Assembly (NCBI RefSeq): GCF_000182745.2
Contig: NC_016027.1
Span: 2,200,001 to 2,264,000 of the forward strand
Length of the DNA: 64,000 nt
Reading direction: 5' to 3'
From: Komagataeibacter medellinensis NBRC 3288
Lineage (GTDB): Bacteria; Pseudomonadota; Alphaproteobacteria; Acetobacterales; Acetobacteraceae
The translations under genes were made by a program, and so were the position numbers. The notes beneath the pieces are model-generated. The model saw only the letters and a list, made by a program, of their open reading frames with translations, did no database searches and was not told the origin of the DNA. The stretch's first letter is position 1. Each line of letters opens with the position of its first letter. Below, piece by piece: positions 30,228 through 50,673 of this stretch.

Positions 30228-30232
30228 GGCGA

Positions 30233-31639: not shown

Positions 31640-31807
31640 GATATGCGGACCTGCGTGGCGCGAAGGGGTGGACCCCGCAAGGGAGTGATTGACCTTTCAT
31701 GCCAATTTTGGAAACATGGCGCCAGATCCGGGATACGGGGACAGGTGTGCGCGCCAGGTTCCATGCATACTGCTCCGGGTTGTGCGTGATCCATGGAGTT
31801 TTCCGGT

Positions 31808-32141: not shown

Positions 32142-32199
32142 CATTGCCTGCCAGATTGCAGAAAGCGGCATTCCCCTGCGGGCGTGCCGCTTTTTACGT

Positions 32200-33509: not shown

Positions 33510-34370
33510 ATGTCCGATGTTACCGTTTCTTCCTTTCCCGCCCTGTCATCCATGAATGCCCTGTGGCAGGCCCGTTACGGCACCCGGCCGCCCACGCCGC
33601 CCCTGCCCGAAAGCCCGGTGGCGCGGAGTCTGATGGCGCATCGCTCGGTGCGTGCCTTCAGCCCCACCGCATTGCCCGAAGGTGTGCTGGAAGCTGCCGT
33701 GGCGGCCGCGCAGTCGGCCTCCACCGCGTGCAACATGCAGGCATGGAGCGTGGTTGCCGTGCAGGATGAGCAAAAGCGCGCGCGGATTGCCGAACTGGCG
33801 GGCGAACAGGCGTTCATCGCGCAGGCACCGCTTTTTCTGGCATGGGTGGCTGACCTGTCGCGGCTGGAGCAGGTGGGGCGCGCCCAGGATTGCGCCCTGC
33901 CGGGACTGGACATGCTCGATACGTTCGTGACCAGCGTGATCGATACGGCTCTGGCCGCCCAGAACGCGGCCGCCGCCCTTGAATCCTACGGGTTGGGAAT
34001 CGTGTATGTGGGGGCGGTGCGCAACCAGCCCGAAGCCATTGCGACCGAACTGGGCCTGCCGCCGCGCGCGCTTGCGGTGTGTGGCATGAGTGTTGGCTAT
34101 CCAGACCGCAACCATCCCACAAGCATCAGGCCGCGCCTGCCGCAGCATGTCGTGTTGCACCGGGAGCGGTATGACGCACAACCGTCGGTCCCCGCCGATA
34201 TCGCGGCCTATGACGAGCGTGTGCGCGCAGCCCGCGCCAGTCAGGACCAGCCGGCGCGCAGTTGGAGCGAAAGCGTGCTGGCGCGGCTGGGTAATGCTGC
34301 CGCCCTGCATGGCCGCGAACACCTGCCCCAGGCCCTGCGGGCCATGGGTTTCAGGCTGGATCAGGCATGA
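33510..34370 (+). CDS. Nitroreductase family oxidoreductase (NfsA/Frp-like)
   Basis: 286 residues. The nitroreductase FMN-binding start is clear: AHRSVRAFSPTALPEGVLE, then AAQSASTACNMQAWSVVAVQD, and the mid-protein helix of LAAQNAAAALESYGLGIVYVGAVR. The arrangement suits the NfsA/Frp NADPH-dependent group. AGGAGG lies 8 bases upstream of the ATG at 33510, so the longer frame from 33354 is rejected. It probably reduces flavins, quinones or nitroaromatics in the cytoplasm; the substrate is not determined. No operon partner is evident. Confidence 0.85.
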   Translation: MSDVTVSSFPALSSMNALWQARYGTRPPTPPLPESPVARSLMAHRSVRAFSPTALPEGVLEAAVAAAQSASTACNMQAWSVVAVQDEQKRARIAELAGEQAFIAQAPLFLAWVADLSRLEQVGRAQDCALPGLDMLDTFVTSVIDTALAAQNAAAALESYGLGIVYVGAVRNQPEAIATELGLPPRALAVCGMSVGYPDRNHPTSIRPRLPQHVVLHRERYDAQPSVPADIAAYDERVRAARASQDQPARSWSESVLARLGNAAALHGREHLPQALRAMGFRLDQA

Positions 34371-34512
34371 AATACAGCTCTGCCCCGCCTGTGCGGGGTT
34401 GACCGGCGGAATGTTCTGGTGAACTTCATGCTTGTACTGCCCGCGGCTGAATGCGGGCAGGAGTGCGCTTTGAGGAGCGTGCCCGCGCCATGATGAAAGA
34501 GAAATAAAGGCT

Positions 34513-35604
34513 ATGGACAGCGCCACTTCCCTTCCCTTCACGCTTTCCCCCAATGCGTCGCCTGTCACGGCACAGCAGCGGGCGCAGATTCTGGCCAATC
34601 CCGGTTTCGGGCGTGTCTTTACAGATAATATGGTCGTTATCCGCTATCAGGAAGGCAGGGGGTGGCACGATGCCCGCGTACAGCCCTTTGCGCCGCTTGC
34701 GCTCAACCCGGCCTGTGCCGTGCTGCACTACGCGCAGGAAATTTTCGAAGGGATGAAGGCCTACCGCACGGCGGAAAGTGGCATTACCCTATTTCGCCCT
34801 TATGCCAACGCCGCGCGTTTTGCCAAATCGGCCGCCCGCCTGGCCATGCCGGAAGTGCCCGAAGAGGTGTTTGTCGAGGCCGTGCGCCAGTTGGTGCGCG
34901 TGGATCATGCATGGGTGCCGGACAAGCCCGATGAAAGCTTGTACATCCGCCCCTTCATGATTGCGAACGAGACTTTTCTTGGTGTGAAGCCTGCATCGGA
35001 ATATCTGTTCATGGTCATCGCGTCTCCCGTGGGTGCCTATTTTGGCGAAGAGGCGGTGAGCGTGTGGGTATCCGATTTCTGCCGCGCCGCCCCCGGTGGC
35101 ACCGGTGAGGCCAAATGCGGTGGCAACTATGCTGCAAGCCTGCTGGCCCAGCAGGAAGCTAAAGGCCATGGCTGCGCGCAGGTACTGTTCCTTGATGCGG
35201 TGGAGCGCCGCTGGATCGAGGAAATGGGCGGCATGAATGTGTTCTTCGTGTTCGATGACGGCTCCCTTGCCACCCCGCCGCTGACCGGCACCATCCTGCG
35301 TGGCATCACCCGCGATTCGCTTCTTACGCTGGCCCGCGCGCAGGGCCTGACCGTGCGCGAAGAACCCTATGCCATCGACCAGCTTTATGCCGATGCCGCG
35401 TCGGGTCGCCTCAAGGAAGTGTTCGCCTGCGGCACGGCGGCAGTGGTCTCACCCATCGGCCGTTTCCGTGGGCCAAAGGGCGATGCGGTCGTTGGCAAGG
35501 GTCAGGGCATTGGCCCCGTGACAGCGAAGCTGCGTAGCGCCCTGATCGCCATCCAGCGCGGTACGGCCCCTGATCCCCATAACTGGGTGGAAAAGGTTAT
35601 CTGA
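34513..35604 (+). CDS. ilvE: Branched-chain amino acid aminotransferase
   Basis: 363 residues of the class IV PLP aminotransferase fold. The PLP lysine is Lys201 in GEAKCGGNYAASL. Other family parts: ALNPACAVLHYAQEIFEGMKAYR, LYIRPFMIANE, and FACGTAAVVSPIG, the phosphate-binding loop. It interconverts Leu, Ile and Val with their 2-oxo acids. The length fits the longer BCAT type (about 350-365). AAAGG is close to the ATG. An 8-bp hairpin (CTGCCCGC / GCGGGCAG, 34437-34460) lies in the leader and another follows the gene. Confidence 0.95.
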   Translation: MDSATSLPFTLSPNASPVTAQQRAQILANPGFGRVFTDNMVVIRYQEGRGWHDARVQPFAPLALNPACAVLHYAQEIFEGMKAYRTAESGITLFRPYANAARFAKSAARLAMPEVPEEVFVEAVRQLVRVDHAWVPDKPDESLYIRPFMIANETFLGVKPASEYLFMVIASPVGAYFGEEAVSVWVSDFCRAAPGGTGEAKCGGNYAASLLAQQEAKGHGCAQVLFLDAVERRWIEEMGGMNVFFVFDDGSLATPPLTGTILRGITRDSLLTLARAQGLTVREEPYAIDQLYADAASGRLKEVFACGTAAVVSPIGRFRGPKGDAVVGKGQGIGPVTAKLRSALIAIQRGTAPDPHNWVEKVI

Positions 35605-35610
35605 TCGTGT

Positions 35611-35647
35611 GGTCAGGGCCGGGTATTTTGCATATCCGGCCCTGACC
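35611..35647 (+). terminator. Strong hairpin after ilvE, terminator-like but without a T-run
   Basis: GGTCAGGGCCGG pairs perfectly with CCGGCCCTGACC over 12 bp, with a 13-base loop. It begins 6 bases after the ilvE stop. The bases after it (TGGTGATTG) are not a U-tract, so efficiency is uncertain. Confidence 0.6.
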
Positions 35648-35719
35648 TGGTGATTGTGCATTGGGCGAATCATGCCGGTGTAACATGGGCCGTTCATGAA
35701 ACCTGCTGAACATCATGAG

Positions 35720-35773
35720 GACGTTTCTGGTGCAGCTTGGGTGAAACAAGGTGGCGCCCGGAAGTTTTTATCA
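35720..35773 (+). repeat. Dispersed intergenic repeat, family 1, copy F (degenerate, shortened)
   Basis: GACGTTTCTGGTGCAGCTTG joined to GGTGGCGCCCGGAAGTTTT and TATCAG matches the outer parts of copies C and D, with the middle palindrome mostly lost. It lies between ilvE and the gene at 35816. Confidence 0.55.
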
Positions 35774-35815
35774 GCAGGCTGGTTTAATAGTCCGCACAGG
35801 GAAAGAACACGCCCG

Positions 35816-36214
35816 ATGACTGAAAAGACCCTGGATGTAACGGGACAGTGGGATGGGCAGTTCAGCTACCCCCATGCGTTACCGCCGGAGTTTTTCTCCG
35901 CATCGCTGTTTGAAGCGGGCGGTCGGTTGGGTGGCACCGTGACCGAGCGCGTGGCTGGCGGGCAGGGCGATACGTGCTTTATCTCGACCGTACGGGGCAT
36001 GCGCCATGGTGCCAGCGTGCGGTTTACAAAAACATATGAAGGCAGTGGCCGACAGCATGCCGTGCTGTACACGGGTGCACTGAATGCTGATGGCACCGAG
36101 ATCGAGGGGGAATGGCGTATCGCCGGTTCTTGGTCGGGCCGGTTCCTCATGTTGCGCCGCAGTGGTGGCAATGCCGCAACCGTGCGGCAGGCAGAAGCAG
36201 CCCTGACGGACTGA
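35816..36214 (+). CDS. Conserved-looking protein of unknown function, predicted beta-rich
   Basis: 132 residues from MTEKTLDVTGQWDGQ. No signal peptide or membrane helix. Repeated short hydrophobic stretches with Gly-Trp turns (GQWDGQF, GGRLGGTVTER, GEWRIAGSWSGRFLML) suggest a small beta-barrel or sandwich. I do not recognise a family. The ATG at 35816 is preferred because the frame upstream of it runs through a repeat remnant. The gene ends facing thiC across repeat copy D. Confidence 0.6.
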   Translation: MTEKTLDVTGQWDGQFSYPHALPPEFFSASLFEAGGRLGGTVTERVAGGQGDTCFISTVRGMRHGASVRFTKTYEGSGRQHAVLYTGALNADGTEIEGEWRIAGSWSGRFLMLRRSGGNAATVRQAEAALTD

Positions 36215-36245
36215 TCCGTTACTCATAATTGGGGAAGGCCAATCC

Positions 36246-36330
36246 TGGAAAAGTTTCTGGTGAAGCTTTTTGCAAAAAGCTTCGGAAGAATGCCGCCTCT
36301 TTGAAAAAAGGCGGCACCTAAGAACCTCTG
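36246..36330 (+). repeat. Dispersed intergenic repeat, family 1, copy D
   Basis: GGAAAAGTTTCTGGTGAAGC, a GAAGCTTTTTG / CAAAAAGCTTC palindrome, then GCCGCCTCTTT / AAAAAAGGCGGC and ACCTAAGAACC. It lies in the convergent gap between the unknown gene and thiC. Confidence 0.85.
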
Positions 36331-36364
36331 CCATTTTATCAGGGCATTATTTCGGGATTGTCCT

Positions 36365-38278
<1,914 letters not shown>

Positions 38279-38325
38279 TCACCTGCGGGCGCTGTGCCGC
38301 AGCCTTGAGCCGATTGTCTGCACCA

Positions 38326-38447
38326 GTCCCTCCGCCGGTATGAGCCGGATCAGGTTCCCCGGAACGCACGATGCGCCCGGAAGGGTCTCCGCGCGCATGG
38401 TTGTCCATGCCAGCGGTCTCTCAGCCCCTTGTCGGGACTCCCCTTGG
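38326..38447 (-). promoter_or_regulatory. TPP riboswitch (THI element) upstream of thiC
   Basis: Minus-strand conserved blocks: AAGGGGAGTCCCGACAAGGG then GCTGAGAGACCG, GACCCTTCCGGGCGC, GAACCTGATCCGGCTCATAC and CGGCGGAGGGA. This is the full TPP aptamer. It ends 120 bases before the thiC ATG and should lower thiC expression when thiamine diphosphate is plentiful. Confidence 0.96.
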
Positions 38448-38599
38448 TCCGTTCAGGATCAGGAAACGCATGGTCCTTGTCAATGCGCATATGAAGGGGG
38501 CCAGCGTGAGTGCGAAAAAGAATTCGTGTGCCGACTTGCGTGTGGCCGGGTTGTGATAGAGTGCTACGGACCATCATTAACGGTACGAAAGCGGGACAT

Positions 38600-40300
38600 A
38601 TGGCAGGCAGCGTGATTTCCGGGCGGATCGCACAGGGTAGCGGGCGCATGGTGGCCGATACCGTCATCCGCAACGTGCGCCTGTTCGATCTGGTAACCGG
38701 GGAGCTGCTGCCAACCGATATTGCCATATGTGGTGACACCATTGTCGGCACGCTGGAGCAGTATGAGGGCACGAACGTGATCGAGGGGCATGGCCGCATT
38801 GCCGTGCCGGGCTTCATCGATACGCACCTGCATATCGAATCCTCGCTCATCACCCCGTTTGAATTCGACCGCTGCGTCCTTCCCCATGGCGTGACCACCG
38901 CCATATGCGACCCGCACGAGATGGCCAACGTGCTGGGCCGCCCAGCGCTGGACTACTTTACCCAAGCGGCAATGCGCACGGTCATGGACCTGCGGGTCAA
39001 CCTGTCAAGCTGCGTGCCTGCGACCCATCTTGAAACATCGGGCGCAACCCTGGCGGCAGCAGACCTGGTGGCCTACCGGGACCATCCCAAGGTCATTGGC
39101 CTGGCCGAGTTCATGAATATTCCCGGCGTGCTGAATGGCGACCCGGTCTGCATGGAAAAGCTGGAAGCCTTTGCTGGCGGTCATATTGATGGCCATGCGC
39201 CGCTGCTGCGCGGGCGCAGGCTCAATGGTTATCTGAGTGCCGGCATCACCACCGATCATGAAGCCACGACGGCGGAAGAAGCGCTGGAAAAGGTGCGCAA
39301 GGGCATGATGGTGCTGATCCGCCAGGGGTCGGTGTGTAAGGACCTGCGTGCGCTGGTGCCGTTGCTTAACCCCGCGACGTCACCGTTCTTCGCCTTCTGC
39401 ACCGATGACCGCAACCCGCTGGAAATCGCGCATGAAGGGCATCTGGATTATCTGATCCGCCTTGCCATCTCGCTGGGGGTGGAGCCGCTGGCCGCCTATC
39501 GCAGCGCCTCGCTCAGCGCAGCCAATGCCTTTGGCCTGCGCGACCGGGGCATGATCGCGCCGGGCCGGCGGGCGGATATCGTGCTGCTTGATGACCTGCG
39601 CGAATGCCGGGTGTCGGATGTGATCAGTGCGGGGCGTCTGGTCAATGATGCACTGTTTGCCGCGCGTGAGATCATTCCCCCCGTGGGCACCGACAGCATC
39701 AGCCTGCCCGGTCCCGTCACGGCAAAGGATATGCAGGTTGCGGGCAGCGGCACGCAGCGCCCCGTGATCGGCCTGCTGCCCGGCCAGATCATCACGCCGT
39801 TCCTGCATGCCGACCTGCCGGTGGCGGGTGGCATTGTCCAGCCCGACCCGGCGCAGGACATCGCGCGTATCTGCGTGGTGGCGCGGCATGGGCATAACGA
39901 CAATATCGGGCGCGGGTTTGTTAAGGGGTTTGGCCTCTCGGGCGGGGCGCTGGCGTCCTCGGTCGGGCATGACAGCCACAATATATGTGTGGTTGGCATG
40001 AATGATGCGGACATGGCGCTTGCGGTCAACCATCTGGAAAAGACCGGTGGCGGCTTTGTTGTGGTGCGCGATGGACAGGTGGTGGCTGATATGCCGCTAC
40101 CGGTGGCAGGGCTGATGAGCGATGCCCCGTTCGAGACCGTGCGCGACCAGCTTGAAGTGCTGCGCGCCGCCGCACGCGCGCTGGGCTGCCAGCTTGATGA
40201 ACCGTTCCTGCAACTGGCCTTCCTGCCGCTGCCGGTCATCCCGCACCTCAAGATCACGGATTTCGGCATGGTGGATGTCAACCGGATGACGCTGGTCTGA
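38600..40300 (+). CDS. adeC: Adenine deaminase
   Basis: 566 residues of the metal-dependent amidohydrolase superfamily. The metal motif is HLHIE in [14 protein letters not shown]. Adenine deaminase signatures include [59 protein letters not shown] and the C-terminal [21 protein letters not shown]. It converts adenine to hypoxanthine in purine salvage. The ATG at 38600 (MAGSVIS) is preferred over 38510, whose added residues do not resemble the family. The gene diverges from thiC; the recombinase gene follows 25 bases later. Confidence 0.95.
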
Positions 40301-40325
40301 CACCCGTGATGCCGGATGCCCGACC

Positions 40326-41201
40326 ATGACCGCAACCGCTGATCTGTCCCCCCCGCCCGCGCGGGAAGCGGTGGCCACGTTGCGCGCCTACCGTGCCGAC
40401 TGGGTGCATTTTACGCAGTGGTGCGCGACGCACGCCGTAGCCCCCATTCCCGCTACGCCAGACGTGGTGGCAGCCTATCTGCGTAGCCTTGCGGAATTTG
40501 CACCTGCCACCATTCGCCGCCGCCTGGCCGCGATTGGCAAGATGCACCGCTTCAACAACATGGCGTGGAATGTGACGGATGAACGTATCCGTGCAGCCCT
40601 TGCCCATATGCTCGACCGGTCCCGCCTCCCCGCGTTGCTGCCAGAAGTGGTGACACCAGACATGCTGCGCGCCATGGTGGAGCGGTGTGACGACGGGGTG
40701 CGGGGCCTACGGGACCGCTGCCTGCTGCTGTTCGGTTTTGCCGGTGCCCTGCGCCGCTCGGAACTGGTGGGGTTACAGGTGGAGGATGTCAGTGTGGGCC
40801 GTGCGGCGTTGGTGCTCAACATCCGCGAGGGCGAAACCCTGCAGCCGGTCAGCCTGCCCCTGCCTGCGGATAGTCCGTTGTGTCCCGCTGCCGCCTTTGC
40901 CGCGTGGCAGCAGGTTGCGCACCGTCAGACCGGTCCGCTTTTCCGTGCCATTTCCAAGGGGGAGCGCGTGGGTGGGCGGGCCCTTACGCCCTATGCCGTG
41001 ACGCGCATCCTGCAACGCCGGGCGCTGATGGCCGAGGTCGCACCAGACGTTGCAGCCCGGTTGAGTGCCCATGCGCTGCGTTCGGGCTATATTGTGGAAG
41101 CCCTGCGTCAGGGCATGGACCCCACTGTTCTGTGCCAGCATACCCGCTACCGTGACCCGCGTGCCCTGCGTCCGTATGAACGCCAGCTTGCCCATGACTG
41201 A
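40326..41201 (+). CDS. Tyrosine recombinase / integrase
   Basis: 291 residues. The N-terminal SAM-like core-binding domain covers about 12-95 (YRADWVHFTQW, VAAYLRSLA). The catalytic domain (about 105-288) has Arg143 in GALRRSEL, His249-x-x-Arg252 (AHALRSG), His272 (CQHTRY) and the Tyr284 nucleophile (RPYER). The usual beta-2/3 lysine is not obvious. It is unlike XerC/XerD in detail. No attachment repeats, tRNA or phage genes flank it. Its stop overlaps the start of the next gene by eight bases, so it belongs to an operon with the unknown gene and the ScpA-like gene. Confidence 0.88.
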   Translation: MTATADLSPPPAREAVATLRAYRADWVHFTQWCATHAVAPIPATPDVVAAYLRSLAEFAPATIRRRLAAIGKMHRFNNMAWNVTDERIRAALAHMLDRSRLPALLPEVVTPDMLRAMVERCDDGVRGLRDRCLLLFGFAGALRRSELVGLQVEDVSVGRAALVLNIREGETLQPVSLPLPADSPLCPAAAFAAWQQVAHRQTGPLFRAISKGERVGGRALTPYAVTRILQRRALMAEVAPDVAARLSAHALRSGYIVEALRQGMDPTVLCQHTRYRDPRALRPYERQLAHD

Positions 41202-41898
41202 AAACCTGCGCCTGCCCTGGGCTGAACTGCCCCCCGCAACCGCGCGTGATGCGGATGCACCGGTTCCGGGTAATCGCCGCGCTGCGGGTCGACGTGGGCG
41301 GCGACCGCTCTCCGCCTGGCCAAAACCTGCCGGGCCTGCGCCGTGGCAGTACTGGCACCTGCTGGTATATGGGCCGGATGCGGTGATGGACGCGTTCGGG
41401 GCAGAGATGGCGGGTCCTGGCCTGATCCCGTGGTCCTTCGATGCTGAACGGGTGGAAGAAGACATGTTTGCGCTGGCCATCGGCCACGATGGTCCGGCAC
41501 GCGGGCGTGCTGGCCTGTCGGTTGAAGGCTGTCGCATCCTGGCGCGCCAGTTCCGTGCCGCGGCCGAGGCGCGCCATGCCCGCCTGACCTTGCGGACAGA
41601 TGGCGACTGCCCGCTGGATTTCCATCAGCTTGTGCCCGTACCCGCACATATTCTGGCGCTTGGTGCCACCCACCCCGATGCACGGGCGTGGCTGCACCGC
41701 CACTGGGGTATTGCCGAAGCCCCGCGCCAGGTCACTTACCTGCCGGGCCGCAAGGCAGGGCGCAGGCTGCCACGTGGGCACCGGGCCGTGGTTTATGGTT
41801 TCTTTACCCGTGGTGGAGAACCCATGCCGGTTGTGCGCCGGGCAGAGGAGCATTATCCCCCCCTGACCTTTCGTCTGTCGGAACGGTCGCTGGGATGA
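41194..41898 (+). CDS. Protein of unknown function coupled to the recombinase
   Basis: 234 residues from MTENLRLPW. A basic, Pro-rich N-terminus (about 15-48) precedes a globular region. The segment DFHQLVPVPAHILALG, followed by RAWLHRHWGI, faintly recalls the F..P.P...WG pattern of Api92-like domains, but this is weak. No membrane helix or nuclease motif was seen. Its start lies inside the end of the recombinase gene, and its stop overlaps the ScpA-like start (ATGA), so the three are probably translated as a set. I do not recognise the family. Confidence 0.7.
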   Translation: MTENLRLPWAELPPATARDADAPVPGNRRAAGRRGRRPLSAWPKPAGPAPWQYWHLLVYGPDAVMDAFGAEMAGPGLIPWSFDAERVEEDMFALAIGHDGPARGRAGLSVEGCRILARQFRAAAEARHARLTLRTDGDCPLDFHQLVPVPAHILALGATHPDARAWLHRHWGIAEAPRQVTYLPGRKAGRRLPRGHRAVVYGFFTRGGEPMPVVRRAEEHYPPLTFRLSERSLG

Positions 41899-42743
41899 CA
41901 GGCCAGTTCACGCTGTTCGATGGCACGGTGGCGGGTAGTGAGCCCGTTATCCGGCTTGATATCTACCACGGTGGCCTGTCCCACCTGCTCCAGTTGGCCC
42001 ATGCGCGTGAGATCGACCTGGTCAGGCTTGATATCGTCACCCTGATAGACCAGCTGGCTGAAGCCGCGCGTGCGCATGCCGCACTGCCGCTGGGGCTGAA
42101 GGCACAGTGGGCGGTCATGGCGTCCGGCCTGCTTTTGCTGCGCTCACGTCTTATGCTGCCGGAAGATGACCCGCGCCAGCAGCAGGCAACACAGGAAGCG
42201 GCCGACCTGCGCACGCGTCTGCTTGCTGCCGAAGGCGCGGCGGCCCTGGCAGGGTGGCTGGCGGCAAGACCGCAACTGGGGCGCGATGTCCATGGCTTTG
42301 GCGGCGCGCGGCCACCCGAAAGTGACGAATCGGCGCAGTGGGAAGTAGACCGGATCGAGTTCCTGTGGGGCTGCCTTGCGGTGTTTGATGGCAATTGGGG
42401 GGTCATGCCGGTCGAGACCCCGTTCTATGCCCCGATGCAACTGGATCTGTTTTCGGTAGAGGATGCCCGCATGCGCGTACGCGCATGTCTTGAAAACGCA
42501 CGACATACGCCGGTGCCACTGGACTGGATGCTGCCCGAATGCATGCGCGTGGGCCAGGTGGACGGGCTTTCGGTAGGGCAGCGCCGATCTGCCTGGAGCA
42601 GCACCTTTGCCGCCTGCCTGGAAATGGTCAAGCAGGGTGAAGCCGTGGCCTTCCAGCCGGAAGGGGATGGGCTGCCACGCTTCAGCGGGGCAACGGCGGG
42701 ACGTGACGGGGACGAATCTGTTTTCATCAAGAAATTAAGGTGA
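41895..42743 (+). CDS. ScpA-like kleisin (segregation and condensation protein A family)
   Basis: 282 residues. The N-terminal part matches ScpA: IRLDIYHGGLSHLLQLA, then REIDLVRLDIVTLIDQL, and AVMASGLLLLRSRLMLPED. The middle has RPQLGRDVHGFG, as in alphaproteobacterial ScpA, and the C-terminal wing SAWSSTFAACLEMVKQGEAV resembles the SMC-head contact region. ScpA bridges the two heads of the SMC dimer with ScpB. No scpB, nagZ or smc is near, so this may be a paralogue or a relocated chromosomal copy. The ATG at 41895 overlaps the preceding stop; the longer frame upstream is the preceding gene's shadow. Confidence 0.82.
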   Translation: MTGQFTLFDGTVAGSEPVIRLDIYHGGLSHLLQLAHAREIDLVRLDIVTLIDQLAEAARAHAALPLGLKAQWAVMASGLLLLRSRLMLPEDDPRQQQATQEAADLRTRLLAAEGAAALAGWLAARPQLGRDVHGFGGARPPESDESAQWEVDRIEFLWGCLAVFDGNWGVMPVETPFYAPMQLDLFSVEDARMRVRACLENARHTPVPLDWMLPECMRVGQVDGLSVGQRRSAWSSTFAACLEMVKQGEAVAFQPEGDGLPRFSGATAGRDGDESVFIKKLR

Positions 42744-43347
42744 AATCTGTCTATCGTTTCGAGTTGTGTTCTTTTTGTCCGGAGCCTGCATGCGCCATGA
42801 TAATATGGCCCGGAAAACAGGTTGTCGAAGGGCCAAAATCCGATTTTTTCCTTATTTTTTTAACAGTTTGCTTGACTGGGATTTTTTTTTGATCAAGCTG
42901 GCGATAACGGTTTTTCACAGCTCTGCCCGACAGGAAATTAAGGACAGTTTGAACGCGTTGGTTTTCCCGCCAGATCATGATCCGGCAGGCAGGGTATCAA
43001 GACAGATCATTTCATATAAGATCAGGGTTGATTTCGAGTTGGTAATAATGTTTATGGATAAATCGTGATGAATGAGTGGTTTGGCCAGTTGGGGCAGGGT
43101 GCATGCGGTGTCTGTACATTGGCATATGCATTGCCTGGAACGGCGGCCATTGTGTTTTTCCGTTCCGCCGGAAAAACGGATTGGCGTGTTTCGCGGCTGA
43201 ACCGGGGAGAACAAGGCGGATCGCATCAGTCGTTTCGTAGAAATTTGGTCATACTCCCGTAGTAAATTTGGTGAAATCAGAACATCCAGAATAAATTTTC
43301 CAATAATTCCTTCCTAAAAACTATGCCGTTCTGAGTGAGGTATGGGT
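42744..43347. other. AT-rich intergenic region upstream of tonB
   Basis: 604 bases with much lower GC than the surroundings, including long T runs at 42845-42865 and 42882-42892 and A/T-rich stretches up to 43330. Two small open frames occur (42766-43068 and 43065-43262), but they have no recognisable domain, ribosome site or coding-like composition. The tonB promoter should lie near the right end; no clear Fur or Irr box was recognised. T-rich stretches near the left could end transcription from the ScpA-like operon. Confidence 0.45.
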
Positions 43348-44010
43348 ATGACGTATGCGGAACAGAGTGATAATACACTACAAAAGGTAATTGTTTTCGC
43401 CCTTGTCCTGGCATTTGAAGGGTTGCTGGTTCTGGCGCTCCTGTACGGGCTTGGCTCCGCGCCTGATGCCCCGCAGGAGCCGTCCAAGCCGCCTGTGGAA
43501 GTGCACATGATCAAGGAGCCACCGCCGCCACCGCCGCCACCACCGCCGCCGCCGCCACCGCCGGAAATTACGCAGCCGCCGCCGCCGTACATTCCGCCGC
43601 CGAAAATTCAGGTGCCGACACCGCCGCCGCCGATGAAGGTGACGCACACGAAGCCGCCAAAGGCCATGCCGCCGGCACGGGCCACCCCGCCTGCCGATGC
43701 GCCCGTGTCCAACGCGCCGCCCGTGCCTGACCACATGGCCGGAACGTCGCCGCTGAACCACGTGGTGCCGGAATACCCCGAAGAGATGTCGGAAGAAGGC
43801 CGTGAAGGCGTGGTATCTGTGGCATGTGACGTGGAACCGACCGGTGTCACCAGCAACTGCCAGGTGGTGAATGTAAAGGGCGGCCAGGCTTTTGCTGACG
43901 CCGCGCTGAAGGCGGTACGTCGTTCGCGTTATGCGCCGGCTGTCAAGAATGGTGTGCCCGTCAAGGAGTTCCACCATCTCTATACGATCACGTTCAGTCT
44001 GAATGACTGA
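43348..44010 (+). CDS. tonB: Energy transducer TonB
   Basis: 220 residues from the ATG at 43348, chosen because GAGG lies 7 bases upstream; the ATG at 43342 is too close to that site. One N-terminal transmembrane anchor (about 13-36) is followed by a long periplasmic Pro-rich spacer with a run of 15 prolines and further PPP/KP segments, then the C-terminal TonB domain (about 135-220) with PEYPEEMSEEGREGVVSV and ALKAVRRSRYAPA. TonB passes proton-motive energy to outer-membrane receptors. It opens the tonB-exbB-exbD-exbD operon. Confidence 0.95.
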   Translation: MTYAEQSDNTLQKVIVFALVLAFEGLLVLALLYGLGSAPDAPQEPSKPPVEVHMIKEPPPPPPPPPPPPPPPEITQPPPPYIPPPKIQVPTPPPPMKVTHTKPPKAMPPARATPPADAPVSNAPPVPDHMAGTSPLNHVVPEYPEEMSEEGREGVVSVACDVEPTGVTSNCQVVNVKGGQAFADAALKAVRRSRYAPAVKNGVPVKEFHHLYTITFSLND

Positions 44011-44097
44011 GCCTGAGTATCAAGGTCAGGCACGGCGGGGGTCGGCAGCACCCCGTCGCCTCGGAAAAAACATCCTGCTCCAGAGGATTTTGGTTAA

Positions 44098-45108
44098 ATG
44101 ATCAGACTGCATCGTAAACACACTTTTGTTGCCTCGGCTGCTTTCGCTGCCATGCTGTGCGCGGCTTCTCCGCTTGCCGCGCTGGCACAGGATGCCGCCC
44201 CGGCCGCTAGCGATGCGGCCCCGGCACCTGCGGTTTCCGCACCCCAGACCGATGGCAGCGGCGCCCCCGCTACCCCGGCGCCGGGTGCAGACGCCCCGGC
44301 CGTGCAGGCTCCCGCCGCTGGCGACGCCACACCTGCTCCCGCAGCGGATGCCGCCCCCCCGGCCGATGCCCCCAAGGCACCCGAAGGCAACCCCTATGGC
44401 CTGGGTGCGCTGTGGGCCAATGGTGACTTTATTGCCCGTGGCGTCCTGCTGATCATGGTCTTCATGTCGCTTGGCACATGGTACATCATGATCACCAAGT
44501 TCTTCGAGCAGGCCCGCGTGATGAACGCAGCCAAGCAGGTGATGAGCGATTTCTGGACCAAGGGTTCCATCAAGGAAGGTGCCGCGGCGCTGCCCGCGAA
44601 CTCGCCCTTCCGCTACATTGCCGAGACCGGCGTGAAGGCGGCTGAGCACCATGAAGGCACGATGCAGGAATCCATCGACCTGCATTCCTGGACCACCATG
44701 TCCATCCAGCGTTCGGTTGACGTGATCCAGACCAAGTTGCAGGGCGGCCTTGCCTTCCTCGGCACCGTGGGTTCCACTTCCCCGTTCGTCGGTCTGTTCG
44801 GCACGGTGTGGGGTATCTATCACGCGCTGACCGCCATCGGCATTGCCGGCCAGGCTTCGATCGACAAGGTTGCAGGCCCGGTTGGTGAATCGCTGATCAT
44901 GACGGCCATCGGCCTTGGCACTGCGGTGCCGGCGGTTCTGGGCTACAACCTGCTGGTCCGCCGCAACAAGGGCGCGATCGACAAGGTGCGCAACTTCGCG
45001 GCTGACGTGCAGTCAATCCTCATGGGTGGTTATCGTCACGGCGCCGATATTGTGGTGCATGCTGACAACTCCCCGACCACAACGACTATCGACAACCGGG
45101 TGGGCTGA
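44098..45108 (+). CDS. exbB: Biopolymer transport protein ExbB (long form with signal peptide and Ala/Pro-rich arm)
   Basis: 336 residues of the MotA/TolQ/ExbB proton-channel family. A signal peptide (about 1-30, ending ALAQ) and a low-complexity Ala/Pro/Asp periplasmic segment (31-95) precede three transmembrane helices. The core motifs are LGTVGSTSPFVGLFGTVWGI and the final helix with ESLIMTAIGLGTAVPAVLGYN. It forms the inner-membrane motor with ExbD that powers TonB. The N-terminal extension is like that of Pseudomonas and other alphaproteobacterial ExbB. It lies 87 bases after tonB and 2 before the first exbD. Confidence 0.95.
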   Translation: MIRLHRKHTFVASAAFAAMLCAASPLAALAQDAAPAASDAAPAPAVSAPQTDGSGAPATPAPGADAPAVQAPAAGDATPAPAADAAPPADAPKAPEGNPYGLGALWANGDFIARGVLLIMVFMSLGTWYIMITKFFEQARVMNAAKQVMSDFWTKGSIKEGAAALPANSPFRYIAETGVKAAEHHEGTMQESIDLHSWTTMSIQRSVDVIQTKLQGGLAFLGTVGSTSPFVGLFGTVWGIYHALTAIGIAGQASIDKVAGPVGESLIMTAIGLGTAVPAVLGYNLLVRRNKGAIDKVRNFAADVQSILMGGYRHGADIVVHADNSPTTTTIDNRVG

Positions 45109-45110
45109 TC

Positions 45111-45533
45111 ATGGGTATGCAAGTTGGAGGTGGCGGCGATGAAGACGAGGTGGTGTCGGCCATCAACACCACACCGCTTGTCGACGTCATGCTGGTGCTG
45201 CTGATCATCTTCCTGATCACCATCCCCGTCGCGACACATACCATCAAGGTCAAACTTCCGATGGATGCCAACCAGCCGACCCGCACGATGATAAACAACA
45301 TCGTCATTGCGGTGACGCCAACCGGGCAGGCCTACTGGAACGAGACCCCCTTGACCAGCTATGCCGACCTGGAATCCCACCTGGAGCATGTAGCCGCGCA
45401 AACCCCGCAGCCCCAGATCCAGATTCGCGGTGACCAGACGGCCAAGTACGAAGGGGTGGGCAAGGTGATCGCGGCCTGTCAGCAGGCGGGTATCGTCCAC
45501 ATTGATTTCATTACCGAGCAGCCGCACGGCTGA
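45111..45533 (+). CDS. exbD: Biopolymer transport protein ExbD (first copy)
   Basis: 140 residues. A short cytoplasmic start leads into one transmembrane helix (about 22-42) carrying the essential Asp of NTTPLVDVMLVLLIIF. A periplasmic domain follows with ITPTG-like and DLESHLEHV segments. It pairs with ExbB as the proton-conducting stator of TonB. It starts 2 bases after the exbB stop codon. A second, clearly related exbD follows 54 bases later. Confidence 0.94.
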   Translation: MGMQVGGGGDEDEVVSAINTTPLVDVMLVLLIIFLITIPVATHTIKVKLPMDANQPTRTMINNIVIAVTPTGQAYWNETPLTSYADLESHLEHVAAQTPQPQIQIRGDQTAKYEGVGKVIAACQQAGIVHIDFITEQPHG

Positions 45534-45587
45534 TATCCATTCCCGGCTGGGGCGCATGCCCCGGCCACTTTTGGGAGAGTAGACGCC

Positions 45588-46025
45588 ATGGGCATGAATG
45601 TCGGCTCAGACAGCACCACAGAGGACGAAGGTATTGTCGATATCAATACCACGCCCCTGATTGACGTCATGCTGGTGCTGTTGATCATGCTGATCATCAC
45701 CATTCCGCTCCAGACGCATTCAGTTTCGATCGACCTGCCGCAGGGTAACCCGCCGCCGTCCACCGCGCCCGACCCGGTGGTGGATACGGTGGCGATCGAT
45801 TTTGACAATACCATCACCTGGAATGGTGAGCCCGTTGCCAGTGATGCGGACCTGCAGGCCCGCTTCAAGGATGCGGCGGCCCAGCCCGTACAGCCGGAAA
45901 TGCACATCCACCCTGACCGCCTGGCTAGCTACAAGGTTGTGGCCAAGGTTCTGGCGGATGCGCAGCGTCTAGGCGTAAGCAAGCTTGGGATCATGGGCAG
46001 CGACCAGTTCATGGATGCGCAGTAA
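45588..46025 (+). CDS. exbD: Biopolymer transport protein ExbD (second copy)
   Basis: 145 residues with the same plan as the preceding gene: NTTPLIDVMLVLLIMLIITIP helix with the conserved Asp, then a periplasmic domain ending KLGIMGSDQFMD. The sequences diverge beyond the helix, so this is an old duplication and not an assembly repeat. TonB operons with two ExbD proteins are known; in Xanthomonas the second one serves specific receptors. It is followed by a strong terminator. Confidence 0.93.
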   Translation: MGMNVGSDSTTEDEGIVDINTTPLIDVMLVLLIMLIITIPLQTHSVSIDLPQGNPPPSTAPDPVVDTVAIDFDNTITWNGEPVASDADLQARFKDAAAQPVQPEMHIHPDRLASYKVVAKVLADAQRLGVSKLGIMGSDQFMDAQ

Positions 46026-46070
46026 CATGGCCATCCGGCCCTGATTCGTGGGCACAGACAGCACGGCATA

Positions 46071-46101
46071 ACGGCCCTTCCCTGTGGGGAGGGCCGTTTT
46101 T
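46071..46101 (+). terminator. Rho-independent terminator of the tonB-exbB-exbD-exbD operon
   Basis: A 12-bp stem (ACGGCCCTTCCC pairing with GGGGAGGGCCGT, one wobble) with a TGT loop and a T-run directly after it. Confidence 0.93.
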
Positions 46102-46330
46102 CATGGCATGCCCCATGGGGTCTGGCATCTTTCCCGGCTGCCGTGCACAGGGGGCGCGACCTGGCTGTTGTGCCGGGGAAACCTGCTGCGGTGGTTGCGG
46201 CCTACTTTTTCCTGCCTGCGCTCATCCATGGATATGACGGGTTTCCCTTTTTTTGCAGGAAGCAGGATTGTCTGTATGACGCAACTGCATTGCGAGGGGA
46301 TGCAGGCTCACCAGCAAGAAGAAATGGCGT
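46102..46330. other. Intergenic region upstream of the nucleobase permease
   Basis: 229 bases with no supported gene. The short open frames here lack a ribosome site and any family features. No purine riboswitch was recognised. The permease promoter probably lies here. Confidence 0.4.
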
Positions 46331-47683
46331 ATGACAGGAACGAGACCATCCCACCCGGTAGATGAAATGCTGCCGGTAGTCAGGCTATTTGCCTTCGGGG
46401 TGCAGCATGCCCTGGTCATGTATTCTGGAACCGTGGCCGTACCGCTCGTTTTTGCGGTGGCCATGCATATGTCCGCGGCCCAGACGGTACTGCTGATCAA
46501 CTGTGGCCTGATGACTTCAGGCATCGCCACGATCATGCAGAGCGTGGGATTTGGTCAATTCGGTTCGCGCCTGCCCATCGTGCAGGGATCATCATTTGCC
46601 ATGATGGCATCCATGTTGCTGATCGGGCAGGTCTATGGCATCCGTTCGGTTTTTGGTGCCGTCATGGGCGCGGGTCTGGCCATGGTGGTGCTGGCGCCAT
46701 TGATGGCGCGGCTCATGCGTTTTTTTCCGCAGGTCATCATTGGCTGCCTGATCACCATCATCGGGCTGACACTCATTCCGGTCGCGGGGCGCTGGGTTGG
46801 CGGCGGGACGCCGGGTGCGCCAGATTTTGGTAGTCCCATCAACCTGTTCCTGGCTTTTGTCACCATACTCATCACCGTGGCGGTACAGGCCTGGGGGCGA
46901 GGGTTCATCGCCAATATCAGCGTGCTGGTGGGGCTTGTGGCGGGCAGTATCGTGGCGGCGCTGTGTGGCATGGGGCATTACGCCATGGTGGCGCAGGCAC
47001 CATGGTTTGCGCTCAGTATGCCCTTTGCTTTCGGCATGCCGGAATTTCATGTCATGCCCATAACCATCATGCTGCTGAGCATGATCATCATCGTGGCAGA
47101 AACCGCAGGCAACTGCCTTGCCATTGGCCGGTTGGTAGATGTGCCCGTAACCGATACCACCATAGCGGGTGCCCTGCGCGCCGATGGGCTGTCCACCCTG
47201 CTGGGTGGGGCGTTCAACAGCTTTCCCTATAATGCCTTTACCCAGAATACCGGGCTGGTCGCCATGACCGATATCCGCAGCCGTTTCGTGGTGGCGGCGG
47301 CAGGGGGGATCATGATCGGACTCGGGCTGTTTCCGAAACTTGGCGCCCTCATCGCGGCCCTGCCACCGCCGGTGCTGGGCGGGTGTGGGCTGGTCATGTT
47401 CGGCATGACAACGGTGGGAGGCGTACGGGAGCTGCTGCATGTGCGATTCGAGGGTACGCGCAATGGCCTGATCGCGGCTGTATCCCTGGCGCTGGGCATG
47501 CTACCGACGGCCTGCCCGGACCTGTTTGCCCATCTGGGTGGGCTGTGGCGGCTGTTGCTGTGTAATGGGGTGCTTTTGTGTATCCTGTCAGGTGTTACGC
47601 TCAACCTGCTGATAGGTGAGCGTGCACCGGACGGAGACGGGGCGAATGCCTCCCCCTCCATACCCATACCGCCGGGTACCTGA
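46331..47683 (+). CDS. NCS2 family nucleobase (xanthine/uric acid/uracil) permease
   Basis: 450 residues, about 12-14 transmembrane helices. NCS2 features: FAFGVQHALVMYSGTVAVPL at the N-terminus, the QSVGFGQFGSRLPIVQGSSFA substrate region, a conserved helix with VAETAGNCLAIGRL, and the GGAFNSFPYNAFTQNTGLVAMT signature. The NAFTQNTGL form and length fit xanthine/urate transporters better than uracil ones, but the substrate is inference. It imports purine with protons. Adenine deaminase and purine genes lie elsewhere in the window. The 3' end faces the MFS gene across repeat copy G. Confidence 0.88.
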   Translation: MTGTRPSHPVDEMLPVVRLFAFGVQHALVMYSGTVAVPLVFAVAMHMSAAQTVLLINCGLMTSGIATIMQSVGFGQFGSRLPIVQGSSFAMMASMLLIGQVYGIRSVFGAVMGAGLAMVVLAPLMARLMRFFPQVIIGCLITIIGLTLIPVAGRWVGGGTPGAPDFGSPINLFLAFVTILITVAVQAWGRGFIANISVLVGLVAGSIVAALCGMGHYAMVAQAPWFALSMPFAFGMPEFHVMPITIMLLSMIIIVAETAGNCLAIGRLVDVPVTDTTIAGALRADGLSTLLGGAFNSFPYNAFTQNTGLVAMTDIRSRFVVAAAGGIMIGLGLFPKLGALIAALPPPVLGGCGLVMFGMTTVGGVRELLHVRFEGTRNGLIAAVSLALGMLPTACPDLFAHLGGLWRLLLCNGVLLCILSGVTLNLLIGERAPDGDGANASPSIPIPPGT

Positions 47684-47816
47684 CAAAGCTGGAAAGTGTT
47701 GAAGCCGATCACGGGCTTTCACGTGACCGGTCAGCCGGCGCGGGAGCCAGTTGCCTGAACCTGTTTTCCGAACCGGGGGCCCGCCGCATATGCCTGCCTG
47801 AAAACATCGAGCAGTC

Positions 47817-47873
47817 ATAAGGCTGTTTTCGGTAAAGTCTTCCTGAAAAAGGCGGCACTCGGAAATGTCTGCT
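47817..47873 (+). repeat. Dispersed intergenic repeat, family 1, copy G (degraded)
   Basis: GTAAAGTCTTCCTGAAAAAG then GCGGCACTCGGAAATGTCTG keeps the second half of the repeat, with the first palindrome largely gone. It lies in the convergent gap between the permease and the MFS gene. Confidence 0.45.
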
Positions 47874-47905
47874 GTTCTGGCAATATGTTGTTTTCAGCCA
47901 GTCGT

Positions 47906-49294
47906 TTATCTGGCTGGCGCGCGCGCGCCAAGCAGGCGGGCCGCGCTGCACAGCATGCCCATAAAGGCGACGATGGCGCCAAAGCCAAGGCAACTGCGTT
48001 CCGCATCATGCGTGATCAGGCCAAACGCCATGGCCACGAGCATCGCCCCCGTGGCCTGCCCGCACTGCCGGGCAATCTGGACCATGCCCGATGCGCTACC
48101 CGAGCGGCCCGGAGGGGCCGTGACCATCATGATGCGGTTGTTGGGTGGCTGGAATACCCCAAACCCCATGCCCCCCAGTGCGATGCGCCAGGCAATATCG
48201 TACCAGGTGGGGTTTGCAGGCAGCATGTACAGGGCCAGAAACCCCATGGAGGTCATGCCCAGCCCCACCGAGGACAGGATGGCGGCGGGCACCCGGTCTG
48301 ACAGCCTGCTGATGAGCGGGGCCACCGCCATGATACCGACAGGCCACGGTGTCATGAGCAGGCCAACGATGGCGGGTGGATAGTGGAACAGGGATTGTAG
48401 CGTGAAAGGAAACGAGATCATGAACAGGTTCGAGGCCACGAATGCCACGAACCCCACCACCGTGCCGCTGCGGAAGGCGCGGATGTGCAGCATGTCGATG
48501 GGGAACATGGGATGGGCCTGCCCATGCTGGCGGCGGACCAGCAGCCAGCCGGCGGCAACCCCCGTCATGACCAGCCCGATTACCTGTGGCGCCCCTGCGT
48601 GATGGGCGACTGAATCACCTGCCATGATCAGCGCGCCAAAGGCGAATATGTTGAGCAGCGCGCTGGTACCGTCAAACGAACCGGGGTTGACCGGCGTGCG
48701 CGGGAGCGAGCCCAGCGCCAGCACCAGGGCCGTGATCCCCAGCGGGATGTTGAACAGGAACAGCCACGGCCAGTTGGCAAAGGACAGGATGATGGATGCC
48801 ACGGTCGGGCCACCGCCCACCCCCAGCGCTACCATCACGCCATTAAGCGCGATCCCGCGCCCCAGTATGGCATGCGGGTAGATGAAGCGGATCAGCGCGA
48901 TGCTGACACTCATGATGCACGCGCCGCCCACGCCCTGCACCGCGCGTGCCAGCGCCAACGCCAGCAGGGTATGTGACAGCGCGCAGAACAGTGATGCCAC
49001 CGTCAGCAGCGCCAGCCCGATCTGGCACAGCCGCGCAAACCCGATTCGCGTGCCAAGGGCAGCCATGGGCAGCAGCGAGACCACGCTAGCCAGCTGGTAG
49101 GCATTGACAATCCACACCGCCGCGGCCGGGGAGACATGCAGGTCCCCCGCTATGGTGGGCAGGGCGACATTGGCAATGGCGTAATCCAGCAGCGCCAGCA
49201 GAACCGACAGCGCCACGGCGGTTACCGCGCGCACGCGTGCGGCACCATGCAGACCTTCGCCTTCAATCAGGACAGGTTTGGGCTGGGGGGGCAT
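47906..49294 (-). CDS. MFS transporter, multidrug exporter type (DHA2-like)
   Basis: 462 residues, about 14 transmembrane helices. Motif C-like and DHA2 features: ALLDYAIANVALPTIAGDL in helix 1, AVWIVNAYQLASVVSLLPMAALGTRIG, ALARAVQGVGGACIMSVSIALIR, and FLFNIPLGI. The second half keeps the LLMTPWPVGIMAVAPLISRLSDR loop. It probably exports a drug or metabolite with proton antiport across the inner membrane. No regulator gene is adjacent, so the substrate is unknown. It is followed on the same strand by nothing obvious, and purD lies upstream. Confidence 0.88.
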   Translation of the reverse strand: MPPQPKPVLIEGEGLHGAARVRAVTAVALSVLLALLDYAIANVALPTIAGDLHVSPAAAVWIVNAYQLASVVSLLPMAALGTRIGFARLCQIGLALLTVASLFCALSHTLLALALARAVQGVGGACIMSVSIALIRFIYPHAILGRGIALNGVMVALGVGGGPTVASIILSFANWPWLFLFNIPLGITALVLALGSLPRTPVNPGSFDGTSALLNIFAFGALIMAGDSVAHHAGAPQVIGLVMTGVAAGWLLVRRQHGQAHPMFPIDMLHIRAFRSGTVVGFVAFVASNLFMISFPFTLQSLFHYPPAIVGLLMTPWPVGIMAVAPLISRLSDRVPAAILSSVGLGMTSMGFLALYMLPANPTWYDIAWRIALGGMGFGVFQPPNNRIMMVTAPPGRSGSASGMVQIARQCGQATGAMLVAMAFGLITHDAERSCLGFGAIVAFMGMLCSAARLLGARAPAR

Positions 49295-49392
49295 GGGCAG
49301 GCACTTTTCGGGCTGTTATGGAGCTGTAGCTTGTACACGTAACGATAACCCGAGCGCGTCCATGCGACCACCGGGAGTTTCCAGCCGGTTGC

Positions 49393-50673
49393 TCAGCCCA
49401 GTGCGTCCAGTGCGCGCTGGCCGATATCGTGGCGGTAGATGCCATCAGGCCAGTCAATTCTGGCTATACCTTCATAGGTACGCACCCGCGCGCTGGCCAG
49501 CGTGTCGGCCGTGGCACATACGGCCAGCACCCGGCCGCCTGTGGCAACAAGGTTGCCCGCGTCATCCAGTTTCGTCCCCGCCTGGAATACGCGCACGCCC
49601 GGCACGCTCTCCGCCTGTGTAATGTTGCGTATGATCCCACCGGTCACCGGCCTGCCGGGGTAGCCGCGGGCCGCCATCACCACGCTTATGGAGAACTGGT
49701 TGGAAAAGCGGATGTTGGTCCGGGTCAGGTCTCCCTTGGCCACGGCGGCGAGGGCCGCCAGCAGGTCGCTTTCCAGGCGGATCAGCAGGGCCTGTGCCTC
49801 CGGGTCACCAAGGCGGACATTGTATTCGATCAGTTGCGGGCCTGCCTGTGTCAGCATGAGGCCGGCAAAGATAATGCCGGTAAACGGCGTGCCTCGCCGC
49901 ACCATCTCGCGCAGCATAGGGCGCACCAGCAGGTCAAGCGCTGCTTCCTGCGCCGCATGGTCAAAGCCGGCAGGCGGCGAGACCGCGCCCATGCCGCCGG
50001 TGTTGGGGCCGGTGTCGCCATCGCCAATGCGCTTGTGGTCCTGTGCCGCACCGATCAGCACGGCGGTTTCCCCCGCACAGAAGGCGAAAAGCGAGACTTC
50101 ATCACCCACCAGGCAGTCTTCTATCACCACGCTCTGGCCCGCCTGGCCCAGCGTGCCATCGGTCATCATGTCGGTAATGGCCTGCTCGGCTTCGGCAACG
50201 CTCTGGGCCACGACCACGCCCTTGCCCGCCGCAAGCCCGTCGGCCTTGACCACGACCGGCGCGCCGTGGCTACGGACGTAATCCAGTGCCGGGCCTGCGG
50301 CATCAAAGCGTTCCCACCGTGCGGTGGGAATGCCGGCTGCGTCACAGACTTCCTTGGTGAAGGTCTTGCTGCCTTCCAGTGCCGCCGCCGCCTGCGTGGG
50401 GCCGGCACAGGCAATGCCCGCCTGTGCACAGGCATCGGCAATGCCAGCCACCAGCGGGGCCTCGGGGCCGGGTATCACCAAGTCGATGCGCTCACGCCGT
50501 GCCAGTGCGATCAGTCCCGCTACGTCATCCGCCTTTACGGCACGGTTGGTGCCCAGTGCAGCGGTACCGGGGTTGCCCGGCGCAATGAACAGAGCATCAA
50601 GCAGGGGGGAGCGCGCAATGGCAGCGGCCATGGCATGTTCACGTCCGCCCGATCCGACCAGCAGCACCCGCAT
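49393..50673 (-). CDS. purD: Phosphoribosylamine-glycine ligase (GAR synthetase)
   Basis: 426 residues from MRVLLVGSGGREHAMAAAI, with GGAGG 9 bases upstream of the ATG at 50673. The ATP-grasp domain shows KADGLAAGKGVVVAQ, ECLVGDEVSLFAF-type and DHKRIGDGDTGPNTGGMGAVSP, then YNVRLGDPEAQ at the metal site. It makes GAR from phosphoribosylamine, glycine and ATP, the second step of purine synthesis; PurF, the first step, is also in this window. The long frame upstream of the start is antisense to xseA and is not used. Confidence 0.96.
   Translation of the reverse strand: MRVLLVGSGGREHAMAAAIARSPLLDALFIAPGNPGTAALGTNRAVKADDVAGLIALARRERIDLVIPGPEAPLVAGIADACAQAGIACAGPTQAAAALEGSKTFTKEVCDAAGIPTARWERFDAAGPALDYVRSHGAPVVVKADGLAAGKGVVVAQSVAEAEQAITDMMTDGTLGQAGQSVVIEDCLVGDEVSLFAFCAGETAVLIGAAQDHKRIGDGDTGPNTGGMGAVSPPAGFDHAAQEAALDLLVRPMLREMVRRGTPFTGIIFAGLMLTQAGPQLIEYNVRLGDPEAQALLIRLESDLLAALAAVAKGDLTRTNIRFSNQFSISVVMAARGYPGRPVTGGIIRNITQAESVPGVRVFQAGTKLDDAGNLVATGGRVLAVCATADTLASARVRTYEGIARIDWPDGIYRHDIGQRALDALG

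Follow-up and report, generated by a model that had tools for sequence, protein, structure and literature searches.

Why should a site-specific recombinase share an operon with a kleisin, a subunit of the structural maintenance of chromosomes (SMC) machine? The question is raised by three genes in a 64,000-nucleotide stretch of Komagataeibacter medellinensis NBRC 3288 (NC_016027.1, positions 2,200,001 to 2,264,000). This stretch is referred to as the window, and positions are counted from its first letter. The window sits on the 3.14-Mb contig C3, which is the chromosome. The triad, all on the + strand, is composed of R (40326-41201, 291 amino acids), an Xer-type tyrosine recombinase; M (41194-41898, 234 amino acids), which has no known family; and K (41895-42743, 282 amino acids), a second ScpA-type kleisin. 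Neighboring genes overlap stop-to-start, with ATGACTGA shared by R and M at 41194-41201 and ATGA shared by M and K at 41895-41898. An earlier note on this DNA had described these overlaps correctly and had suggested a module linking recombination to chromosome structure, with dimer resolution, plasmid maintenance, or defense as possible roles.

The favored answer, held with moderate confidence on the basis of sequence comparison, is that R-M-K is a plasmid stability module for multimer resolution and segregation. The copy in the window would be a domesticated, chromosomal descendant of it.

Distribution and Gene Order

M is found on 44 of 72,556 plasmid records, at 54 places, all of them from the Acetobacteraceae in the broad sense. 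Of 200 genomes of the family, 44 encode it. When 84,980 species genomes were scanned by pattern, 123 stretches with M were confirmed, and the 80 best were retained. Three of these 80 are titled outside the broad Acetobacteraceae; they are metagenome-assembled genomes named Rhodocyclaceae, Nevskia, and Caulobacteraceae, perhaps through misbinning. When 385 genomes of the class were searched with a profile, with at most eight candidates scored in each, the K. medellinensis genome and two others matched, one of them (G727) strongly.

R, M, and K stand in the same order and on the same strand in 65 of the 80 loci found with M, and the order is thus not peculiar to this strain. The remaining loci are made up of five cut by a contig end, seven with R-M and no adjacent K, one with M-K and no R, and two with neither gene adjacent; one of the last two (L074) has R approximately 4 kb upstream. 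The rows of this survey, like those of the kleisin tree and the catalytic-residue table below, include duplicates of one genome from two collections. The three proteins are co-inherited. Over 58 loci, their distance matrices correlate at r 0.863 (R-M), 0.835 (R-K), and 0.926 (M-K), and the permutation maximum is 0.24.

Modules outside the window's own clade are called plasmid-type here, a term that is no proof of a plasmid location, as most loci beyond the named plasmid records are draft contigs. Among 86 loci (L032-L117), genes named by eye in the flanks include ParA in 13, a replication initiator in 9, and ParB in 5. Together these account for 18 loci, none of which is of the window type. 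Several strains carry the module on more than one plasmid. M is present on six of the seven plasmids pTT14-1 to pTT14-7 of Roseomonas mucosa and is missing from the 396-kb pTT14-1; the pTT14-4 copy is damaged, with K not found and an insertion sequence behind M. Three of the four plasmids examined in Acidisoma PAMC 29798 have M, and the 13-kb plasmid does not. In Lichenicola cladoniae, M is on four plasmids of 150-441 kb and is not on the 43-kb and 30-kb plasmids. The sizes fit a system needed by large plasmids, on the few cases offered by three strains.

The dif-like Dyad

Many modules have a dif-like dyad upstream of R. It is built of two inverted arms of 11-12 bp, of the type CGCGATAA, around a spacer of 6-7 bp. 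The consensus arm is yACGCGCGATAA, and the spacer is 6 bp long in 21 sites and 7 bp long in 25. With duplicates kept, such dyads occur in 46 of 85 windows of 500 nucleotides upstream of R and in 16 of 807 control windows. A widened search covered the distinct non-window-type modules, which number 78 (L032-L117 minus the seven of window type); 73 of these have at least 1.5 kb upstream of M. A dyad lies within 3.7 kb in 56 of the 73, against 4.3 expected from a background density of 7 in 421,466 bp.

The near symmetry of the arms is expected if one recombinase binds both, and the dyad is a candidate target site of R. The dyads, the 44 plasmid records, the copies on most large plasmids of three strains, and the 18 of 86 loci with ParA, replication initiator, or ParB neighbors all support plasmid maintenance or dimer resolution, from among the roles suggested earlier, as the likely one.

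Spacers differ among three Roseomonas pecuniae contigs and among three Roseomonas KE2513 contigs, and one spacer is common to two of three Acidiphilium PA contigs. A private spacer for each co-resident plasmid was rejected as a rule, because spacers are identical in Acidisoma, in Komagataeibacter oboediens, and between pTT14-2 and pTT14-4.

The Recombinase R

R of the window matches the Pfam family Phage_integrase at 33.9 bits (cut-off 27.1). It also matches XerC and XerD models, with scores far under their equivalog cut-offs. The catalytic set of Arg, Lys, His-x-x-Arg, His/Trp, and Tyr is incomplete. Alignment places Arg143, His249, Arg252, and Tyr284 in register, and the column of the beta-hairpin Lys, which is Lys in most relatives, holds Glu. 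The His/Trp place, nine residues before the catalytic Tyr, is occupied by Tyr275. The earlier description of the enzyme as complete apart from the hairpin Lys was right about the Lys and overlooked the Tyr at the His/Trp place.

Plasmid-type enzymes are largely intact. All of Arg-Lys-His-Arg-Tyr is present in 78 of the 86 rows outside the window type (67 of 74 after removal of duplicates), and the His/Trp place is His in 48 rows and Gln in 30. The hairpin Lys is absent throughout the window clade, in 15 of 15 rows of one table and 29 of 29 of another, duplicates included. Within residues 160-182 of these 29 rows, Lys occurs only in L129, at the very start. The four residues kept by the window R are kept in all 19 Komagataeibacter species. 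The His/Trp place is Tyr in all 19 and His in the rows of the Novacetimonas group, and the conserved His272 reads Arg in 7 of the 19.

The module R of another locus (L020 and L077, one locus from two sources) likewise has no Lys, and L077 also encodes a divergent recombinase in which the full set is present. Retention of the protein where the chemistry is lost hints at a DNA-binding or scaffolding role. The window R is probably a poor or dead recombinase that has been retained as a DNA-binding scaffold.

The Middle Protein M

M has a conserved core at approximately residues 51-229, with the motifs GxIPW, EED, CP(L/F)DLHxLxPVP, and WLxxxWGT. The absence of a recognized family was noted earlier and holds: M has no Pfam or PADLOC match, and its profile has no match among PDB sequences. 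A likeness to YubB/Api92 (DUF1281) proteins, suggested by a motif (PxP ... WGT), is at most a tentative lead: none of 37 M members has such a Pfam match. A search for PF18406 in 200 genomes gave one weak match, insufficient for a profile comparison with M. M is a new orphan family with strongly conserved motifs.

Fused Loci and Module Variants

Eight loci of Komagataeibacter and Novacetimonas have a truncated, catalytically dead recombinase fused to M, in all eight cases. By eye on the alignment, the fused recombinase has lost Arg I, HxxR, and Tyr. Examples are the open reading frames at L035:5239-6579 on pKOB1 of K. oboediens, which is annotated as a transposase, and at L144:6226-7563 on C7, a 256-kb contig of the K. 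medellinensis genome. A further fusion is on pKOB2, and this frame carries the same annotation as the one on pKOB1. A full-length divergent recombinase adjoins the fusion in six of the eight loci; the L035 copy was tabulated, and its residues are complete. The fusion speaks for R and M acting jointly.

An invariant 28-bp site, ACTTCCGATAA-GTTATC-TTGTCGGAAGT, lies upstream of the fusion in 8/8 fused loci, among varied flanks. The K. medellinensis genome holds this site once, on C7, where a full-length recombinase also stands beside it. At up to three mismatches, no second match to a looser pattern of the site was found in this genome.

Toxin-antitoxin pairs are found at some modules. On Roseomonas plasmids, a pair lies between the site and R in L037 (4212-4774) and L209 (531-1278). 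In L208 and L210, M-K follows a toxin-antitoxin pair (at 1646-2404 in L208), and R is divergent. The Roseomonas pairs, which separate the dif-like site from the module genes, look like insertions.

On the Acidisoma plasmid unnamed3, Type I-C CRISPR (clustered regularly interspaced short palindromic repeats) genes lie downstream of the module and a toxin-antitoxin pair. Plasmid unnamed2 has the gene order of unnamed3 as far as the beginning of the first CRISPR gene. The stretches concerned are L034:8637-12507 and L206:5137-5507.

The Kleisin K

K of the window is a weak match to the Pfam family SMC_ScpA (PF02616; 16.7 bits, under the cut-off of 24.6) and matches an NCBIfam ScpA model at 7.8e-9. 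PF02616 is matched at E 0.01 or better by 30 of 34 module kleisins, and a profile of the 34 matches the N-terminal and middle regions of the solved ScpA chains 4i98, 3w6j, 3zgx, and 6ivh (E 1.2e-20 to 5.7e-9). Each of these chains was solved with a partner. The C-terminal segment of the K family resembles that of canonical ScpA and is conserved in plasmid-type rows. Plasmid-type kleisins also keep an N-terminal GPLD motif (P in 85% and D in 81% of 95 rows). The window clade, 23 rows with an almost invariant C-terminal segment, mostly has GGLS at this place, as does the window K.

In a quick, midpoint-rooted tree, 117 module rows form one clade apart from canonical ScpA, with a support of 97 in the Shimodaira-Hasegawa-like approximate likelihood ratio test. 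The kleisin of L036 falls outside this clade on a very long branch, and the row L138 is a mislabeled copy of the canonical ScpA locus.

As the earlier note observed, scpB and smc are not at the triad. The canonical scpA-scpB pair is at C3:2.797-2.799 Mb, approximately 0.55 Mb away, and the only full smc of the genome is at C3:0.786-0.790 Mb. An scpA beside scpB is therefore present, and the objection that K might be the sole scpA of the genome falls. A third kleisin is encoded on C7. ScpB was rejected as a regular fourth member of the module, as its gene adjoins only L036 and L082.

The kleisins of two Pseudomonas aeruginosa records and a Paracoccus record were rejected as modules, being in ordinary scpA-scpB neighborhoods. 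The P. aeruginosa records L181 and L182 are labeled plasmid and have a chromosomal-looking scpA-scpB neighborhood, with gap, edd, and others. This region is perhaps captured chromosomal DNA or a matter of assembly.

The Chromosomal Copy

All 19 Komagataeibacter genomes have a window-type K, and the other 18 copies are 74-86% identical to that of the window. It lies on a contig of at least 2.9 Mb in five of the 19 and on contigs of 11-512 kb in the rest. Canonical scpA is listed in 18 of the 19 (not in G203). A further, distant kleisin is found in 17; in G209 it shares a contig with the window-type copy. The surroundings are constant: of seven long-flank loci (three from Komagataeibacter, four from the Novacetimonas group), thiC is upstream in all seven and the adenine deaminase gene ade in six.

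In the kleisin tree, the window-type clade (support 100) is nested among other modules with canonical ScpA outside. The nearest forms are from Acidiphilium, Acetobacter, and Rhodopila (support 92, below star). This nesting makes transfer from plasmid to chromosome the simplest reading, which falls short of proof. The window-type triad is under purifying selection: the median ratio of nonsynonymous to synonymous substitution rates (dN/dS) over 171 pairs is 0.216 for R, 0.174 for M, and 0.225 for K.

A recombinase site near the triad, raised in the earlier note, was sought, and no convincing one was found. An Xer/dif system would be expected to have a cognate inverted repeat of approximately 28-31 bp. 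There is no dif-like site at the module in the window or in the seven loci of its type. A scan of positions 30000-50000 gave one match at threshold, at 45196 in an ExbD-like frame. The threshold matches in the window, L038, and L040 all lie approximately 2.5 kb downstream of the module and have no AA/TT core; they are judged to be coding coincidences. Elsewhere on the chromosome, a core motif that recurs in many of the 19 Komagataeibacter genomes, TGATAACGTCTCTTATCG (C3:2788155), was tried as a site for the window R and rejected, because it pairs poorly over its flanks (L197). Without a convincing site and a catalytic Lys, recombination is an unlikely present job for the window copy.

The adenine deaminase gene, named by eye, is at 38510-40300 on the window, and a gap of 25 bp (40301-40325, + strand) separates it from R. 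Because this gap is too short for a site and a promoter region, the triad is likely co-transcribed with ade.

Downstream of K by 0.6 kb, positions 43342-44010 encode a predicted protein with a run of approximately 15 prolines. We take this protein to be TonB-like, and the genes that come next are presumably ExbB/ExbD-like.

Proposed Function and Alternatives

In the proposed mechanism, plasmid-form R would act as a single Xer-type recombinase at the upstream dif-like site and convert multimers into monomers. M would serve as an adaptor that binds R and bridges R and K. K would be a spare kleisin that joins the host SMC and ScpB, bringing the SMC ring and the recombination complex together at the dif-like site. 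A plasmid-type module would have been fixed behind ade on the chromosome of the Komagataeibacter/Novacetimonas ancestor, would then have lost its site and its hairpin Lys, and would have been kept by selection. The window R may now bind DNA or scaffold M-K without efficient recombination, and the chromosomal triad may be a DNA-directed adaptor that serves SMC or resident plasmids.

Several observations weigh against the plasmid stability reading. K is not adjacent to R-M in the seven loci mentioned above, and G727, from another family of the class, has R-M and no kleisin (L205:1-13001). K is thus not indispensable. The dyad of G727 is perfect at 12/12 (CACTTCCGATAA-GAAGCC-TTATCGGAAGTG, approximately 2.3 kb upstream of R), and its R-M is followed by what we take, by eye, to be a DarT/DarG-like toxin-antitoxin pair. 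Of the 73 modules in the widened search, 17 have no dyad within 3.7 kb, and some of the 56 dyads are weak (L071, L074, L116). Co-resident plasmids have identical sites and spacers in Acidisoma (3/3) and K. oboediens (2/2), which would also permit plasmid fusion. Replicon type is known only for named plasmid records and a few very long contigs. The module of Belnapia sp. F-4-1 (L063, the same as L015; L063:4880-7408) lies on a 5.4-Mb scaffold, with its catalytic set complete and with a dif-like site, and the module set is therefore not confined to plasmids. Either a plasmid has integrated here or this is another chromosomal case, one that looks younger. A further non-window-type module, L076, is on a 735-kb contig. 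Finally, retention of Arg, His, Arg, and Tyr by the window R in 19/19 species is odd if catalysis is wholly irrelevant.

A tentative alternative, given less weight than plasmid stability through multimer resolution, is that recruitment is the main function. R on the dyad would recruit a private kleisin via M, and the host SMC-ScpB would be loaded on, or steered to, the plasmid. Catalysis would be secondary, which would explain both the dead R-M fusions and the Lys-less chromosomal copy. This reading, if true, would add a new mode of plasmid segregation, and its domesticated form would act on the Komagataeibacter chromosome.

Continued recombination by the window module, at an unlinked site and with the lost Lys functionally replaced, is unlikely. 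Candidate targets would be a dif-like site on the chromosome or those of resident plasmids. The four residues retained in 19/19 species favor such activity, as does the dif-like site on contig C7 of the same genome, but the C7 site has its own full-length recombinase alongside. The hairpin column has Lys in 0/29 rows, and the Tyr at the His/Trp place and the His272 change to Arg also argue against an active enzyme. Moreover, none of the exact core motifs in the 19 Komagataeibacter genomes is close to the module: each is on another contig or 33 kb or more away, a separation limited in meaning by draft contigs.

A competitor role is doubtful. In this reading, plasmids that arrive with the same module would be poisoned or kept out by the kleisin and recombinase of the chromosome. 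The chromosomal copy has diverged from other modules, and its altered K N-terminal motif might suit a dominant-negative partner. However, 17 of the 19 Komagataeibacter genomes have the additional distant kleisin, which indicates that plasmid exclusion is not effective. PADLOC gave no match for five proteins (E 0.1) and the triad contains no nuclease or SMC ATPase, which speaks against the defense role once suggested for it.

More doubtful still is that the chromosomal copy is a slowly decaying, functionless relic. The loss of the site and of Lys and the divergent N-terminus of K would be expected of one, but median dN/dS values of 0.17-0.23 and presence in 19/19 species would not.

The least probable alternative makes R the integrase of a mobile island, with M and K as passengers left after chromosomal integration; tyrosine recombinases often drive islands, upstream sequences are rearranged at some modules, and the Belnapia module is on a 5.4-Mb scaffold, but the constant thiC and ade neighbors, presence in 19/19 species, a dN/dS of approximately 0.2, and co-inheritance of R-M-K oppose it.

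If the plasmid stability reading is true, there is a genetic link between site-specific multimer resolution and SMC complexes on plasmids, and plasmids carry their own subunit for the host SMC machine. To our knowledge, there is no earlier case of either. The recombinase has lost catalysis and been retained as a protein in two lineages, which offers a direct test of a recombinase as a loading platform. The small, defined dif-like sites suit bench work in vinegar bacteria.

Comparison with Known Systems

Among the matches listed in the open-licence literature, no description was found of an operon that joins a recombinase to M and to a kleisin of its own. Parts of the module resemble known systems.

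Wadjet/MksBEFG systems have their own SMC ATPase, a KITE-type subunit, and a nuclease. None of R, M, and K is any of these, and the triad has no PADLOC match. RIT (recombinase in trio) elements are three adjacent tyrosine recombinases, whereas only one of the three triad proteins is a recombinase.

Plasmid sites of XerCD rely on recombinases and helpers supplied by the host. The module is like XerCD/cer in that multimers would be resolved with helpers; it differs in carrying recombinase, M, and kleisin together on plasmids. Help from extra proteins in plasmid multimer resolution is described for XerCD at ColE1 cer, with PepA and ArgR (PMC5357621), and the main text of that article has no word beginning with SMC or condensin.

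The dif site is described as a pair of inverted repeats that flank a central hexanucleotide, and difH, like difSL, can adjoin its recombinase (PMC2731167). A plasmid xer gene with a 30-nucleotide site alongside is also described (PMC9765430). XerS/difSL, XerH/difH, and plasmid XerL thus share with the module one Xer-type recombinase and a short inverted-repeat site close by. The module adds the co-inherited M and kleisin and has arms of the type CGCGATAA. The window copy differs further in having no convincing site and no hairpin Lys.

The Bosea plasmid pANAM02 (L150:4950-6289) also has a kleisin on a large plasmid, approximately 2-3 kb from a ParA gene. Its scpB is directly behind scpA, and there is no annotated recombinase in the 10.7 kb shown, where three genes are annotated as hypothetical.

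The SMC-ScpAB complex is the closest relative on the kleisin side. The K family is homologous to ScpA in its N-terminal and middle regions and alike in its C-terminal segment. Unlike ScpA, the module kleisins (L036 excepted) are a clade of their own, have scpB adjacent in two modules only, and are tied to M and mostly to R.

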